Source: Oscillospiraceae bacterium
GTDB lineage: Bacteria; Bacillota; Clostridia; Saccharofermentanales; Saccharofermentanaceae
Length of the DNA: 64,000 nt
Assembly (NCBI GenBank): GCA_902788505.1
Contig: CADAKH010000008.1
Coordinates: forward strand, 1 to 64,000
Direction: 5' to 3'
Of the stretch, positions 7,947 to 13,121 are shown piece by piece. A program made the position numbers and the translations under genes. Within the stretch, counting starts at the first letter, position 1; every line of letters starts with the position of its first letter. The notes beneath the pieces were generated by a model. That model saw nothing but the letters and a program-made list of their open reading frames with translations, was not told the origin of the DNA and made no database searches.

Positions 7947-8411
7947 TTACTTGTTAAACCGCTTTAGCGCTTCCTGCATCTTTTTGTTCTCGGCGTTTTC
8001 TTCGAGGCGCATGAGGAACGCACTGACAGTGGCACATATAGTAAATGATACAATAAAGCCGATCCAGGCTGCCACATTATCCAGAGGGAACCAGCCGAAC
8101 ACAACGGCAAAAGCGGTTATTGCGATCAGTATCGTTGCAAAGAACAGGATATTTCTGACAATAAGCGCCAGGTTTTTAATAAGAATATCCGTAAGGAAAA
8201 TATTCTGTGCAGCCGTAACGATCAGGACGAGCAGAAACAGTTCCAGCAAAGTGGCTGTTGACAAACCGGCAGAGCCCAAAGAGAACAATGTAGATACGCT
8301 TCCGGCCTCATTTCCGATGATCAGGTTGATGACTATGAAGATCATGATCATTACTCCGTATATCGAAAACATCTGTCCTATATAGTTAAAAACAGTCTTT
8401 TTATCGTCCAT
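7947..8411 (-). CDS. DUF3021-type four-helix membrane protein
   Basis: 154 residues with four hydrophobic helices (roughly 16-36, 50-70, 80-100 and 112-135) and a charged C-terminal tail (RLEENAENKKMQEALKRF). Small four-TM proteins encoded directly after a LytTR DNA-binding gene are typical DUF3021 proteins, thought to control the LytTR partner. The start overlaps the LytTR stop by one base (TAATG), so the two are translationally coupled. The signal sensed is unknown. Confidence 0.8.
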   Translation of the reverse strand: MDDKKTVFNYIGQMFSIYGVMIMIFIVINLIIGNEAGSVSTLFSLGSAGLSTATLLELFLLVLIVTAAQNIFLTDILIKNLALIVRNILFFATILIAITAFAVVFGWFPLDNVAAWIGFIVSFTICATVSAFLMRLEENAENKKMQEALKRFNK

Positions 8412-8851
8412 TATCTTAACCCCAGCTTCTTTCTAAGTTCATCAGAATACATGCGCGACACTACGATCTGCTCGCCGTTTTGCAAAGTTATCCTGATCTT
8501 GCGGTTAACGTCAGTCTTTAAGCTCTTTATCTTGCGCAGATTGACTATGCTGTTCTTACTGATCCTCAGGAAGTCACGCTCTATGAGTTCCTGTTCGATC
8601 TCATAGAGCTTTAATTCTGACTCGTAGTTTTCGGAATTCGTATAAACGAACGTCTTCCTGTCGACTGCTTCGATATAAAGGATCTTCTCAGTCTCAAGCA
8701 GATAAGTCTCGTTATCCTTACGGACAGCTATCTGCATGTCGATCATGCGCATCATCGCGACCATTCTCTCAATGTCGTTGTTCAGATGCGGTGCTCTTAT
8801 GATGACCTCTGTGTCGTCATATTTGCCGTCAATGTCCAGATTGATCTTCAT
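8411..8851 (-). CDS. LytTR-family DNA-binding response protein
   Basis: 146 residues. The C-terminal LytTR domain is recognisable: ILYIEAVDRKTFVYT, YEIEQELIERDFLRISKNSIVNLRKIKSL and RKIRITLQNGEQIVVSRMYSDELRKKLG. The N-terminal 45 residues are not a receiver domain, so this is the stand-alone type that pairs with a DUF3021 membrane protein. One-base overlaps (TAATG) with both the ABC permease before it and the DUF3021 gene after it point to one transcript, so it probably controls this ABC transporter operon. Confidence 0.92.
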   Translation of the reverse strand: MKINLDIDGKYDDTEVIIRAPHLNNDIERMVAMMRMIDMQIAVRKDNETYLLETEKILYIEAVDRKTFVYTNSENYESELKLYEIEQELIERDFLRISKNSIVNLRKIKSLKTDVNRKIRITLQNGEQIVVSRMYSDELRKKLGLR

Positions 8852-9537
8852 TATTCAAGTCCTTTTCTTTTGAAGGCTGCGAAGAAGAGCGAGAGTGCCA
8901 GAAGCGCATTTACTGCAACAACAAGCATGGTCTCAGTCTTTATCCCGTCAAAAGTCATATTGCCGAGAAGTTCACGGATCTGCTGCGTGTAAAAGATCCC
9001 GGCTATCTTTTCTATTTTATCATTGAACATTGCAAGCATAGGCATAAATGAAAATATGAGCATTACCGGTAGTGACAAAGATGTTGCGGCCATCTGGTTA
9101 GATGCGATGATACCGATGCACGCGCCGATCGCGATCGAGATTATAAATCCTGCTGCCATTACGCCGAGATAGAAAGGAATGTCTCCTGAAGAAAGCGTAG
9201 TTGCCATCACTCCCGCACCTGCCATGCAGATCGTCCAGACATAGATCCCGATTCCAGCAAGATATTCCCAGGCTTTTACATTCGCCATCGTAAGAACCCG
9301 CAGCGTATTCTTCTCCTTCTCTTCTGCAATGACCGATGCGACTGCCACGAGCGGCGCCATGCCCATATACATTACCGAGAAGAGTTTTGTAAAGAACAAT
9401 TCAGGCATATCGGGAATGTTTATCGCATTTTCGAAAATTAGTGTCAGCACAGGAAACATCACAAACTGGATAAGTACGGTTTTGTTCTTCAATGTATCCT
9501 TTAGCTGCTTTTTGATTATCACACTGATGTTATGCAT
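8851..9537 (-). CDS. ABC-2 type transporter permease
   Basis: 228 residues from the chosen ATG. The open frame extends upstream, but AGGAGG sits immediately before residue 1 of MHNISVIIKK, which also overlaps the ATPase gene by 8 bp as expected for a coupled pair. Six hydrophobic helices and an N-terminal KKQLKDTLKNKTVLIQ segment resemble ABC-2 permeases (ABC2_membrane). In the loop after helix 2 the motif EEKEKNTLRVL is characteristic of the family (EREKGTL). With the ATPase upstream it forms an exporter of unknown substrate. Confidence 0.9.
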   Translation of the reverse strand: MHNISVIIKKQLKDTLKNKTVLIQFVMFPVLTLIFENAINIPDMPELFFTKLFSVMYMGMAPLVAVASVIAEEKEKNTLRVLTMANVKAWEYLAGIGIYVWTICMAGAGVMATTLSSGDIPFYLGVMAAGFIISIAIGACIGIIASNQMAATSLSLPVMLIFSFMPMLAMFNDKIEKIAGIFYTQQIRELLGNMTFDGIKTETMLVVAVNALLALSLFFAAFKRKGLE

Positions 9538-10393
9538 ACCTGACCTCCTCATCTGACTCAAGTCTTCTGCCGGTAAGTTCGAGAAATACACTCTCCAAAG
9601 TCGGCTCTGATGAATGGATCGTCTCGATCCTGCCCTGAGACATAAGACTCATTATCTTTGCAGCCGATTCATCACAATGAGGAAGCTCAATGTCCTCACC
9701 CGACGTAAGATGGATATTTATCGTCTTCTGGTGGTTATATCTTCTGCAGAGTTCTTCCGGCGCGCCTCTGTCAACGATCTTTCCTTCATTAAGCAGCGCG
9801 ACTTCATCACAAAGAACAGCTGCTTCTTCCATGTTGTGTGTCGTAAGGAATATAGTGCATCCGGAAGCTTTGCAGTCCGAGATCAGCTTATGGATGTATT
9901 TCATCGTCATAGGATCCAGGCCGCTCGTGGGTTCATCAAGAAACAATAACTTCGGAGAGATCATGAGGACCCTTGCAAGCTGGAGTCTTGCCCTCATGCC
10001 CTTGGATAATTTCATCGCAGGCTTTTTAGCGCTGTCGCCAAGTCCGACCTGTGTCAGAGTCGTCATTGCTTTTGACTTATCAATCTGATAGATATCTGCA
10101 AATATCCTGAGGTTATCGATGCATGACATACGCTCATAGACTCCGTGGTTATCCATCATGATACCAATCTGCTTTTTGTCGGCTCCGGTAAGTGTCCTGA
10201 CATCTTTGCCGAGAACACTGACATCACCGCTGTCAAACGCTAACTGGTCAGTAAGGATCTTAATTAGTGTCGTCTTGCCTGCTCCGGAAGGTCCGAGCAG
10301 TCCGAAAATAGTACCCGGCTTTATATCGAGATCTATGCCGGAAAGGACCCGCCTCCCTGCAAAGCTCTTGCATATTCCATTTGATCTGATCAT
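9530..10393 (-). CDS. ABC transporter ATP-binding protein
   Basis: 287 residues. Walker A GPSGAGKTT near residue 37, Q-loop region KKQIGIMMDN, signature KLSKGMRARL (LSKGM variant of LSGGQ, usual in ABC-2 exporters), Walker B LLFLDEPTSGLDP, and H-loop TTHNMEE. A C-terminal extension (GEDIELPHCDESAAKIMSL...LESVFLELTGRRL) is typical of drug- or lantibiotic-type ABC-2 ATPases. AAGGAG precedes the ATG. A palindrome at 10410-10436 lies directly upstream. It is first of the ATPase-permease-LytTR-DUF3021 unit. Confidence 0.95.
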   Translation of the reverse strand: MIRSNGICKSFAGRRVLSGIDLDIKPGTIFGLLGPSGAGKTTLIKILTDQLAFDSGDVSVLGKDVRTLTGADKKQIGIMMDNHGVYERMSCIDNLRIFADIYQIDKSKAMTTLTQVGLGDSAKKPAMKLSKGMRARLQLARVLMISPKLLFLDEPTSGLDPMTMKYIHKLISDCKASGCTIFLTTHNMEEAAVLCDEVALLNEGKIVDRGAPEELCRRYNHQKTINIHLTSGEDIELPHCDESAAKIMSLMSQGRIETIHSSEPTLESVFLELTGRRLESDEEVRYA

Positions 10394-10409
10394 AACTAAA
10401 CTCCTTTGA

Positions 10410-10436
10410 ACTTTGTTGGCACAAAACTAACAAAGT
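10410..10436. promoter_or_regulatory. Inverted repeat upstream of the ABC/LytTR operon, possible operator
   Basis: ACTTTGTT (10410-10417) and AACAAAGT (10429-10436) form perfect 8-bp arms around 11 bases. It ends 17 bp upstream of the ATPase start. On the minus strand a weak promoter (TTGAAT, 17-base spacer, TAGTTT) overlaps it. A regulator such as the LytTR protein of the operon could bind here. That is inference from position. Confidence 0.4.
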
Positions 10437-10459
10437 CCAAAAGAGCATTCAATACATCA

Positions 10460-11725
10460 TTACATGAGTTGCCGTTTGCATGTGCTAAGTTGCCAAAAAA
10501 GGCACTTTACTGCATATCCGATTCTCTTACGATCTTCCAACACATGATGCGTAACGATCATCTTATCGTTAACGGTAATGATACCTATAAGATTCTTACC
10601 GTATGATACTACAGGAGGAACAAATGCAATATCTGAAATCCTGAGATTGCCGAATTCTGTCCTTATATCGGACCTCATGAGATTAGTAATACTCAGATCT
10701 TTTTTCTTTACGTTCTGACCGTAATTCATTATGTCAGCAAATCTTGCCGTATCGCGTGTATGATATGCACCGACCGCCTCAAGACTTAACGTGTCGATAA
10801 GTGCCGGATCTATCTCTCCGATAAAATGAAGAACGCTGTACTTCACCCTGGGATCTGCAAGCTTTTTCTTCATCAGCTTATTAATCTTTACTGCATTTTT
10901 TCCAACGCTTAACTTACCGTTATATCTGTAACTGATGTGAATGCCGGTCGCAAAGTTTCCCATGCTGCGGTTAGCGGTTAATCTGCCGTCGACTGCAAAT
11001 CCCACATCCGCTCTATAAGGCATGTCTTTTATCCATAAAGCAACCAGATAGGATGTAAGTGAACACCCCGCTTCTTTTGACTTCACAAGAAGATCCGTTA
11101 ATGCATCTTTGGAATATTCTTCAACAACGGTTTTCGTCGTGTGATCCTTCCAGAAAACACGATACGCTTTATCCATGTCAGCATAATTAAATACCCGCCT
11201 CTGACGCGCCCAGCGTTTATTCCAAAGCTTTACAAACTGCCTGTAAAGATAAGGCAGTTTACTTTCTTTTGAAAGAGCCGATACGGGAAGGTTTTCAAAC
11301 GCAACGTAACTAACATCTTCACCTGCAAGAAGTCTCATGAATGTCTCAATAAAATACAGAAGCGACTTACCGTCACCACCCAGGTGATGCATAAGAAAAA
11401 CTATCCCGTCGGGCGATAAGAAACCTCTTATGTACTCCCCTTCTTCTATACGGAAGCGAAGGCCTTCATTTGCATTTATCAGTTCTTCAAAACCTAACGG
11501 AGATTCGCTAAAGCTGCTCAAGGGTCTTTCGCAGTCAACATAGAAAGCATCGCCATTTTCTTCAATGACAACTTTGGAATTTAAGATCTCATATGATGCG
11601 ACTGCTTTATAAAATGCTTTTTCGAGCTCTTCGAAAAGCAATTTACCTTCAACACGTACGCGCATGGCAATAACCATGTTCACATCGAACAGGTTCTCGC
11701 GTTCTGTTTCTATCTTGTATCTCAT
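10460..11725 (-). CDS. Stand-alone condensation/acyltransferase-domain protein
   Basis: 421 residues. The fold family is that of NRPS condensation domains and wax-ester/alcohol acyltransferases: the active-site motif appears as MHHLGGDGKS (HHxxxDG-type) near residue 112, and the C-terminal half carries MGNFATGIHISY and FGNLRISDIAF-like segments seen in such enzymes. It has no carrier or adenylation domain, so it is a free enzyme that may join an acyl group to an amine or alcohol. It overlaps the upstream SDR gene by 4 bp (ATGA), which in turn follows a TetR gene by one base. The substrate is unknown. Confidence 0.75.
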   Translation of the reverse strand: MRYKIETERENLFDVNMVIAMRVRVEGKLLFEELEKAFYKAVASYEILNSKVVIEENGDAFYVDCERPLSSFSESPLGFEELINANEGLRFRIEEGEYIRGFLSPDGIVFLMHHLGGDGKSLLYFIETFMRLLAGEDVSYVAFENLPVSALSKESKLPYLYRQFVKLWNKRWARQRRVFNYADMDKAYRVFWKDHTTKTVVEEYSKDALTDLLVKSKEAGCSLTSYLVALWIKDMPYRADVGFAVDGRLTANRSMGNFATGIHISYRYNGKLSVGKNAVKINKLMKKKLADPRVKYSVLHFIGEIDPALIDTLSLEAVGAYHTRDTARFADIMNYGQNVKKKDLSITNLMRSDIRTEFGNLRISDIAFVPPVVSYGKNLIGIITVNDKMIVTHHVLEDRKRIGYAVKCLFWQLSTCKRQLM

Positions 11726-12468
11726 ATGTATTGTCTGATAGCTTTAACCCACATCTTCATTGCGATGCTGTGCGGTGTAACTTTACTTAAGAATCTCATG
11801 TATCTGAAATAGAATGAACAGACGGATACGTCTTTGCCCTTATGACAGTCCTTTAGCGCAACTTCAACCACTTTTGAAGCAGGTGTCATTCCGGGATACC
11901 TGATGTCTTTCCCGTCACGCTGTTTCGGAAGCATCTTAGTATCGACCCATCCGGGACAAACTGCCGTACATGTGATGCTCTCGTTCTCGACATTAAGGCT
12001 TCTCGTAAACGAGAGAAGATATGCTTTGCTCGCTGAATAGAGCGCAATGTATGGATTGGGCTGGAATGCAGAAGCTGATGCAACATTCAGTATATAGGAA
12101 CCTTTAACCATATAAGGAATGCATGCCCTGCAGATCAGAGTTGCGGCCTTGTCATTGATGTCAAGCATGTCGCTGATCTCTTCCAAAGTAAAATCTGATA
12201 CAGGCTTCATCCTTGCGACGCCTGCGTTATTTACCAGATACCTGATCTCAGGCTTCTCTGATTCTATTTTTTCACAGAAAGAAAATATGTCGTTCCTGTC
12301 AGAAAGATCGACCCTTACAGGAACGATCTTGTCACCGTATTTTTCCTTCAATGAAGTAAGTTTATTCTCACTTCTTCCGACAGCCCACACCTGATCTGTT
12401 TCAGAAAGAAGGCTCTTAACGAATTCTTCTCCGATATCACCCGTGGCACCCGTTACGATTGCGATCAT
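11722..12468 (-). CDS. Short-chain dehydrogenase/reductase (SDR)
   Basis: 248 residues. Classical SDR layout: N-terminal nucleotide motif TGATGDIG (TGxxxGxG), NNAG at LVNNAGVARM, catalytic Ser in NVASASA and the YxxxK pair in LYSASKAYLLSF, then CPGWVDTKM. An NAD(P)-dependent oxidoreductase in the cytosol. The length and the C-terminal FYFRYMRFLSKVTPHSIAMKMW resemble the membrane-associated subgroup acting on lipid-like or keto substrates. It lies between a TetR regulator (1-bp gap) and the condensation-type enzyme (4-bp overlap), suggesting a dedicated small pathway. Confidence 0.9.
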   Translation of the reverse strand: MIAIVTGATGDIGEEFVKSLLSETDQVWAVGRSENKLTSLKEKYGDKIVPVRVDLSDRNDIFSFCEKIESEKPEIRYLVNNAGVARMKPVSDFTLEEISDMLDINDKAATLICRACIPYMVKGSYILNVASASAFQPNPYIALYSASKAYLLSFTRSLNVENESITCTAVCPGWVDTKMLPKQRDGKDIRYPGMTPASKVVEVALKDCHKGKDVSVCSFYFRYMRFLSKVTPHSIAMKMWVKAIRQYI

Positions 12469-12469
12469 G

Positions 12470-13039
12470 TCAGTCCTCCAAGAGGATCCTGGAAAGATCT
12501 TGGGAATTGATCATCGCGCAATCCGCGGTATAAAGACTCTTTACAGCATAAAGATAAACAACGCCCCAATAGAACTCTGATAACTTACGGGCATTGCCGG
12601 ATACGACTGTTCCTTCTTTCTGGCCCTGCCTGATGATCTTTTCAGTTGTCTTATAGAAAGTCTGGTCAGCTTCGCCTTCGAGAAGTCTTTGTGTAAAAAG
12701 CGCGATGCCTGCAGCGAACATATCGTCCTTAAGATTCTTGATGACGTAATCAGACATCTTCTTAATCTTCTGGTCTGCAGGCAGAGGCAGTTTGGCAAGC
12801 ATTGTAAGCTTGTCATTGCTTGCAATCTTATCTGATATTGCAAAGATCTCATCATAGAGTTCTTCTTTAGATTTGAAATAGATATAGATCGTGCCCTGTG
12901 CGATGCCGATATGCTTGGACAGATCACTTATCTTTGTACCGGCAAAACCGTTCCTTGCAAAATACAGAATTGATTTCCTGATAATGAGATTCCTGGTCTC
13001 TTCCCTTATTTCCTGACAGCGTTCCTGTGACTTTGGCAT
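12470..13039 (-). CDS. TetR/AcrR-family transcriptional regulator
   Basis: 189 residues. The N-terminal helix-turn-helix is standard for TetR: ILYFARNGFAGTKISDLSKHIGIAQGTIYIYFKSKEELYDEIF. The C-terminal ligand domain is variable, as usual. It heads the SDR/condensation operon. A near-perfect 24-bp palindrome 12 bp upstream (13052-13075) is the likely operator, so autorepression of the whole operon is expected. Confidence 0.94.
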   Translation of the reverse strand: MPKSQERCQEIREETRNLIIRKSILYFARNGFAGTKISDLSKHIGIAQGTIYIYFKSKEELYDEIFAISDKIASNDKLTMLAKLPLPADQKIKKMSDYVIKNLKDDMFAAGIALFTQRLLEGEADQTFYKTTEKIIRQGQKEGTVVSGNARKLSEFYWGVVYLYAVKSLYTADCAMINSQDLSRILLED

Positions 13040-13051
13040 GACAACCTCTTT

Positions 13052-13075
13052 ATGAATGAATTTTTATTCATCCAT
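13052..13075. promoter_or_regulatory. Likely TetR operator
   Basis: Palindrome of two 10-bp arms around TTTT with a single mismatched pair. The inner half-sites are ATGAAT (13056-13061) and ATTCAT (13066-13071). It sits 12 bp in front of the TetR gene and would block transcription when bound. Binding by this TetR protein is inferred from position and symmetry. Confidence 0.65.
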
Positions 13076-13121
13076 AAATTAGCACAGGGGAATCTCGCTG
13101 TCAACGTGGTATTGGAAAAAC

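Follow-up and report, generated by a model that had tools for sequence, protein, structure and literature searches.

What do a short-chain dehydrogenase and a stand-alone enzyme of condensation fold accomplish together behind a single TetR-family regulator, and does the exporter that follows them belong to the same system? The question is posed by three adjacent minus-strand genes in the 64,000-nucleotide stretch of DNA analyzed here (the window), which encode a TetR-family repressor (12470-13039; 189 aa; PF00440, 2.4e-12), a classical short-chain dehydrogenase/reductase (SDR) with a C-terminal helical extension (11722-12468; 248 aa; PF00106, 3e-41) and a stand-alone condensation-fold enzyme of the acyltransferase type (10460-11725; 421 aa), referred to below as the C-like protein. 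A gap of 1 bp separates the TetR and SDR genes and the SDR and C-like genes overlap by 4 bp, with order, strand and spacing exactly as described in an initial annotation of this DNA. The HHxxxDG motif reported there for the third gene is present as well, reading HHLGGDG at residues 113-119, and the annotation was also right that a carrier or adenylation partner is missing, since neither type of gene was found beside the cassette. From these features it had proposed a compact pathway that makes, and perhaps exports, an acylated small molecule or modified lipid. As detailed below, a conserved, operator-bearing cassette that plausibly produces an acylated small molecule survives comparison with related genomes; the export component of the proposal does not.

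A cassette shared by many rumen bacteria

Scanning a single genome for each species, we recovered 98 relatives of the C-like protein, from which 80 loci were kept. One of these, L031, derives from the same genome as L030 on a near-identical contig and was excluded from the alignment (A3) and from the trees, while the 80-locus gene-order counts include it. An SDR gene is found directly upstream of the C-like gene in 61 of the 80 named loci, with TetR present too in 45 and neither gene in 19, in counts that include some loci cut by contig ends. For C-like genes without the SDR a comparison of neighbors gave no common partner. The flanks of the cassette vary from locus to locus, and across all 80 no conserved lipid, carrier or assembly-line gene lies beside it. 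The same three-gene cassette is common to many rumen bacteria (rumen Clostridia) and is conserved as a unit; many of the loci are from rumen or herbivore gut, and a herbivore is named in the record titles of 23 of the 80, as counted by hand.

The spread of the cassette is patchy. In the genus of the window the C-like gene occurs in 37 of 85 genomes (E of 1e-40 or better) and, of 391 genomes drawn evenly from the class, 12 match the protein at 1e-30. In the C-like protein tree two Saccharofermentans rows (L040, L041) are nested among Lachnospiraceae rows, and a row from a Treponemataceae MAG (L106), without the SDR, falls inside the cassette clade. We read the TetR-SDR-C cassette from these sequence comparisons as an accessory unit that probably moves between lineages. 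Carriage on plasmids was considered and dropped, no tblastn match having been obtained in a plasmid collection. A literature search retrieved neither a description of function nor a paper on the cassette, the acyltransferase papers that it gave dealing with different enzymes, which does not prove it unpublished.

A number of individual loci merit mention. L076 is a single contig with a lone C-like gene and, farther along, a TetR-SDR-C copy, while L003/L023 (G032) and L030/L031 represent the same locus on two near-identical 254-kb contigs, probably an assembly duplicate. On contig C7 of genome G001 (L150:4435-7119) a distant C-like paralogue is found in the order TetR - alpha/beta-hydrolase - C, a cassette built on the same plan with the hydrolase replacing the SDR. 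A near copy in G017 is without both partners, and we therefore place no weight on this order.

An operator-like palindrome over the promoter

Upstream of the TetR gene lies an operator-like palindrome (13049-13078, minus strand) made up of two 13-nt arms (13049-13061 and 13066-13078) that pair with one mismatch and that are separated by a 4-nt spacer, TTTT, not palindromic itself. The palindrome had been noted originally as a 24-bp element with one mismatch; the element is real and the description slightly off. Within the 200 nt that precede TetR, the best palindrome with 13-nt arms pairs at 12 of 13 positions, a score reached by 2 of 1000 base shuffles. It overlaps the -10 element of a candidate cassette promoter (13076-13104, minus strand) consisting of TTGACA (13099-13104), 17 nt and TAATTT (13076-13081), the latter weak in that only 3 of 6 positions agree with the consensus. 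A pattern search recovered the same promoter arrangement in 41 of 45 relatives, and in 40 of these 45 the 60 nt preceding TetR contain an operator half-site, as compared with 61 of 20000 random 60-mers from the same loci. A generic promoter scan listed neither this candidate nor that of the exporter discussed below, and returned fewer promoter-like sites than in shuffles; both promoters are proposed purely on grounds of conservation.

In its own genome the palindrome pattern is found with fewer than three mismatches at the cassette alone, every other place having three, and this single near-perfect copy suggests that TetR is a single-operon regulator; we have accordingly discarded the idea of a wider TetR regulon. 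The protein combines a TetR_N HTH with a conserved palindrome near its own candidate promoter, as is characteristic of TetR regulators, and from the overlap of palindrome and promoter we infer a local autorepressor, with binding predicted at this site.

A stand-alone enzyme of condensation fold

An AlphaFold2 model of the C-like protein, built from 17 relatives, has a pLDDT of 87.3. The two-lobed C fold spans the whole protein, with Z scores of 21 to 33 over ∼310-350 residues against C-fold enzymes. The best solved match is AzeD of Pseudomonas aeruginosa (8s6l; Z 32.9, rmsd 2.8 over 350 residues, 16% identity), followed by the C domain of CDA synthetase (Z 26.9), other NRPS C domains, PapA5 (23.2) and the trichothecene acetyltransferase Tri3 (22.4), with the lower-ranked matches scoring close together. 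The HHxxxDG motif is found in 80 of 80 aligned relatives (alignment A3). PapA5 also carries this motif and is, like the window protein, a stand-alone C-fold enzyme (1q9j; Z 23.2 over 315 residues). The two differ in that the window protein scores only 14.4 bits against the NCBIfam model for PapA5 (NF006787), for which the cut-off is 396, and has no polyketide synthase partner beside it; we do not place it in the PapA5 subfamily.

The relation to NRPS condensation domains (PF00668) is similar. The C fold and the HHxxxDG motif are common to both, and 34 of the 80 relatives reach E ≤0.001 against PF00668, whereas the window protein gives no hit and has no adenylation or carrier domain. The distant homologues L151, L152 and L154 lie above the PF00668 cut-off and L150 just below. 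Searching the window protein against Pfam as a whole gave no hit, and searches of PDB sequences with either the sequence or the family profile yielded nothing convincing (best E about 0.04-0.05). No PF00668 match was obtained in the protein's own genome, with a model that is also blind to the window protein and would miss remote C domains. We do not adopt membership in an NRPS module, as the protein is single-domain, has no adenylation or carrier neighbor and is accompanied, in that search, by no PF00668 match elsewhere in the genome. Given the fold matches and the HHxxxDG motif in the absence of a PF00668 hit, we assign the third protein, as modeled, to the stand-alone C-fold enzymes, its specific family being absent from the curated libraries searched. 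That it might turn out to belong to a known unrelated family, a prospect raised in the initial annotation, is not borne out; its structure places it alongside AzeD, the C domains of NRPSs and PapA5.

Residues 399-421 of the protein, its last 23, are disordered in the model (pLDDT <50) and the last ∼20 residues are absent in close relatives, forming a lineage-specific tail. At the level of DNA (10460-10520) the frame extends ∼20 codons beyond its usual end, across the direct repeats of LytTR type that belong to the exporter promoter.

The SDR and its probable substrate

Across 14 of 14 sequences the catalytic residues S131-Y144-K148 of the SDR and its glycine motif do not vary, and the TGxxxGxG and S-Y-K patterns that define a classical SDR occur together in 56 of the 61 SDRs of relatives; four of the remaining five begin short of the motif in the extracted sequence and the fifth, L065, has a variant. 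The nearest structures to the model (pLDDT 84) are the 7beta-hydroxysteroid dehydrogenases 5fyd and 5gt9 (Z 27.2 and 26.6), which share the SDR fold, inclusive of the C-terminal extension, at 17% identity. The alignment reaches residue 246 and thus includes the C-terminal helices. Further matches, with Z ≤25.9, are to bulky-ketone dehydrogenases, 17beta-HSD13 and many others, and since many unrelated SDRs are found at Z 24-25 structural proximity is weak evidence for the substrate. By profile, the best matches are FabG-like and 3-hydroxyacyl dehydrogenases. We consider a bulky, lipophilic substrate likely and would go no further than that.

Apparent exchange of the C-like gene beneath a constant TetR-SDR pair

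The three genes do not all tell the same history. At eight discordant loci (L038, L042, L045, L049, L055, L057, L059 and L061) the median identities to the clade of the window are 81% for TetR and 74% for the SDR and only 52% for the C-like protein, while relative to the Lachnospiraceae-type loci the C-like protein is the closest of the three, with medians of 56% for the C-like protein, 49% for TetR and 47% for the SDR. In the SDR tree (45 loci) the window clade and the eight loci together split from the rest with support of 100/100. The C tree does not group them, and a forced single clade is rejected, if mildly, with a p-AU of 0.024, in a test where the groups were named after the C tree had already been seen and where the set contained a long branch, L100_C. 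The simplest reading is that the C-like gene appears to have been exchanged beneath a constant TetR-SDR pair, which suggests in turn that what varies in the cassette is the step of acyl transfer. Accelerated change in one lineage, rather than exchange, would be a less probable source of the discordance, though a conceivable one.

What the cassette may do

We tentatively favor, while placing it somewhat below an even chance, a self-contained, ligand-inducible cassette in which an SDR and an acyltransferase modify a lipophilic small molecule. Drawing for the chemistry on what is known of the families, TetR would bind the palindrome over the promoter and shut the operon, to be released by a small molecule that enters or accumulates in the cell. 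Acting on a substrate that is bulky and lipophilic, the SDR would then interconvert carbonyl and alcohol, after which the stand-alone C-fold enzyme, by means of the HHxxxDG histidine, would move an acyl group from acyl-CoA or acyl-ACP onto the resulting hydroxyl (or amine). Its purpose is most likely to tailor or neutralize one compound, for which an exogenous, lipophilic molecule from the herbivore gut is a more probable candidate than one of core metabolism. Counting against an acyltransferase is the fact that the closest fold match, the AzeD entry, is titled a dehydratase. A more specific version, which we consider unlikely in its full form, is an as yet unrecognized means of detoxification in the herbivore gut, spread laterally and working by reduction followed by acylation. 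In it TetR would sense a lipophilic compound from plants or fungi, of the kind of a terpenoid, a sterol or a mycotoxin, the SDR, resembling an HSDH, would set the oxygen function of this compound, and a C-fold acyltransferase would cap it, the acyltransferase being the exchangeable component, swapped between lineages as sensor and reductase stayed constant.

The cassette could instead serve the biosynthesis of a product native to the cell, an acylated small molecule or lipid, with the SDR reducing an oxo-acyl or similar intermediate, the C-type enzyme esterifying or amidating it and TetR sensing the product or a fatty-acyl ligand. PapA5, one of the fold matches of the C-like protein, esterifies lipids, the SDR profile matches FabG and 3-hydroxyacyl dehydrogenases well, and carrier proteins are available in the genome (8 PF00550 matches). 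However, the 80 loci have no conserved lipid or carrier gene adjoining the cassette, and with 37 of 85 genomes of the genus positive it is missing from most close relatives, which would be odd for a structural lipid. We regard an endogenous product as possible, if doubtful. Elsewhere in the same genome (L132; G000 C32, ∼9081-10937) an AMP-ligase-like protein that ends in a carrier-domain match is followed by what appears by eye to be a protein resembling two PlsC-type acyltransferases and then by a second carrier match, possibly a small lipid pathway.

Still less probable, in our estimation, is that the C-type protein acts on a carrier-bound substrate in the manner of AzeD, by dehydration or condensation in trans, rather than as a free acyltransferase. 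AzeD is the clear top match to the fold (Z 32.9 versus 26.9 for the next) and its gene, PA3329, adjoins by gene number azeE (PA3330), listed as a probable short-chain dehydrogenase in PMC9040856, so that here, as in the window, a stand-alone C-fold protein has an SDR gene for a neighbor. This neighborhood supports the pairing of a C-fold enzyme with an SDR, but it also raises the prospect of a dehydratase. AzeD, however, is part of a large NRPS cluster under quorum-sensing control, whereas the window enzyme has no NRPS and a local TetR, and at 16% identity the likeness to an entry titled a dehydratase is one of fold. Moreover, no assembly-line gene adjoins the cassette in the 80 loci, and no NRPS condensation domain was found in the genome by a search that would overlook remote ones.

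The neighboring exporter is a separate unit

Directly downstream of the cassette, as the initial annotation had it, is an operon (7947-10393, minus strand) for an ABC ATPase, an ABC-2 permease, a LytTR regulator and a DUF3021-like membrane protein, although the last of these assignments is weaker than had been stated, with a DUF3021 match of 18.5 bits that is below the cut-off of 24.7. The LytTR regulator (146 aa) has PF04397 as its sole match over cut-off and no receiver domain. Upstream of the ATPase gene a direct repeat, GGCAACTYR-12 bp-GGCAACTYR, is followed by a TTGAA-type -35 and then a -10-like element. In the window the repeat, GGCAACTTA-12 bp-GGCAACTCA (10465-10494, minus strand), falls within the 3'-terminal part of the C-like gene; the candidate promoter, TTGAAT, 17 nt, TAGTTT (10424-10452, minus strand), is assigned by conservation to the exporter and not to the cassette. 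Scoring by the best 9-mer places the repeats in 12 of 13 loci, and in the thirteenth (L035) they were recognized by eye; repeats and promoter occur also at two loci without the cassette, with variants in L087 and L037. LytTR regulatory systems include ABC-linked ones, and those presented in PMC6193735 resemble the exporter in joining a LytTR protein to a membrane protein, with ABC genes and a direct repeat of 12-bp spacing just upstream of the -35; the repeat itself differs, GGCAACTYR here versus ACCxCTTAY in that work. Nothing resembling a terminator was detected in the interval from the C-like gene to the exporter, so that read-through into the exporter is possible.

The distributions of the two units are largely independent. 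Among the 85 genomes of the genus the cassette is found in 37, the exporter permease in 34 and both in 18, versus 14.8 expected by chance; in 16 of the 34 exporter genomes there is no cassette. Where both occur they are adjacent in 10 genomes, by contig coordinates, ∼1 Mb apart on one contig in G005, and on different contigs in the remaining 7, for which the assembly gives no distance. The holB-PSP1 site that flanks the cassette in the window carries in G005 the exporter, with no cassette there. Over the broader set a LytTR gene is located downstream in 11 of the 80 named loci, ten from the clade of the window plus one outlier, Eubacterium L087. The cassette thus occurs largely apart from the exporter in relatives, with 69 of the 80 loci showing no LytTR gene within 6 kb downstream (some of them ending at contig ends), which runs against the link between the two that had been suggested originally.

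We judge the exporter, from its independent distribution and from a promoter and repeats of its own that are present also where the cassette is not, to be an independent, LytTR-controlled neighbor that is separate from the cassette, and reject it as part of the cassette pathway. That the two form one make-and-export system, as adjacency in 10 of 11 genus genomes with a C protein at least 65% identical and one independent adjacency in Eubacterium would favor, is very improbable in light of their co-occurrence in the genus, the exporter's own promoter, the arrangement in G005 and the small number of loci with LytTR downstream.

Two further observations concern this region. In Eubacterium sp. RGIG4867 (L087) an SDR-C pair is followed by an ABC/LytTR/DUF3021 operon, an independent second case outside the clade of the window. 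At L004:786-863 and L056:7829-7906 the exporter is missing and a DUF3021 remnant of 26 residues follows the cassette, reflecting either loss of the exporter or an effect of assembly; L056 belongs to the clade of the window, yet keeps just this remnant.

Implications

The link to the exporter, natural when only one genome is considered, vanishes on comparison. If the favored reading is right, the cassette would amount to a small, portable module in which two modifying enzymes come with a sensor of their own, found across many bacteria of the rumen, and its third protein would provide a case of a C-fold enzyme that works without an assembly line.
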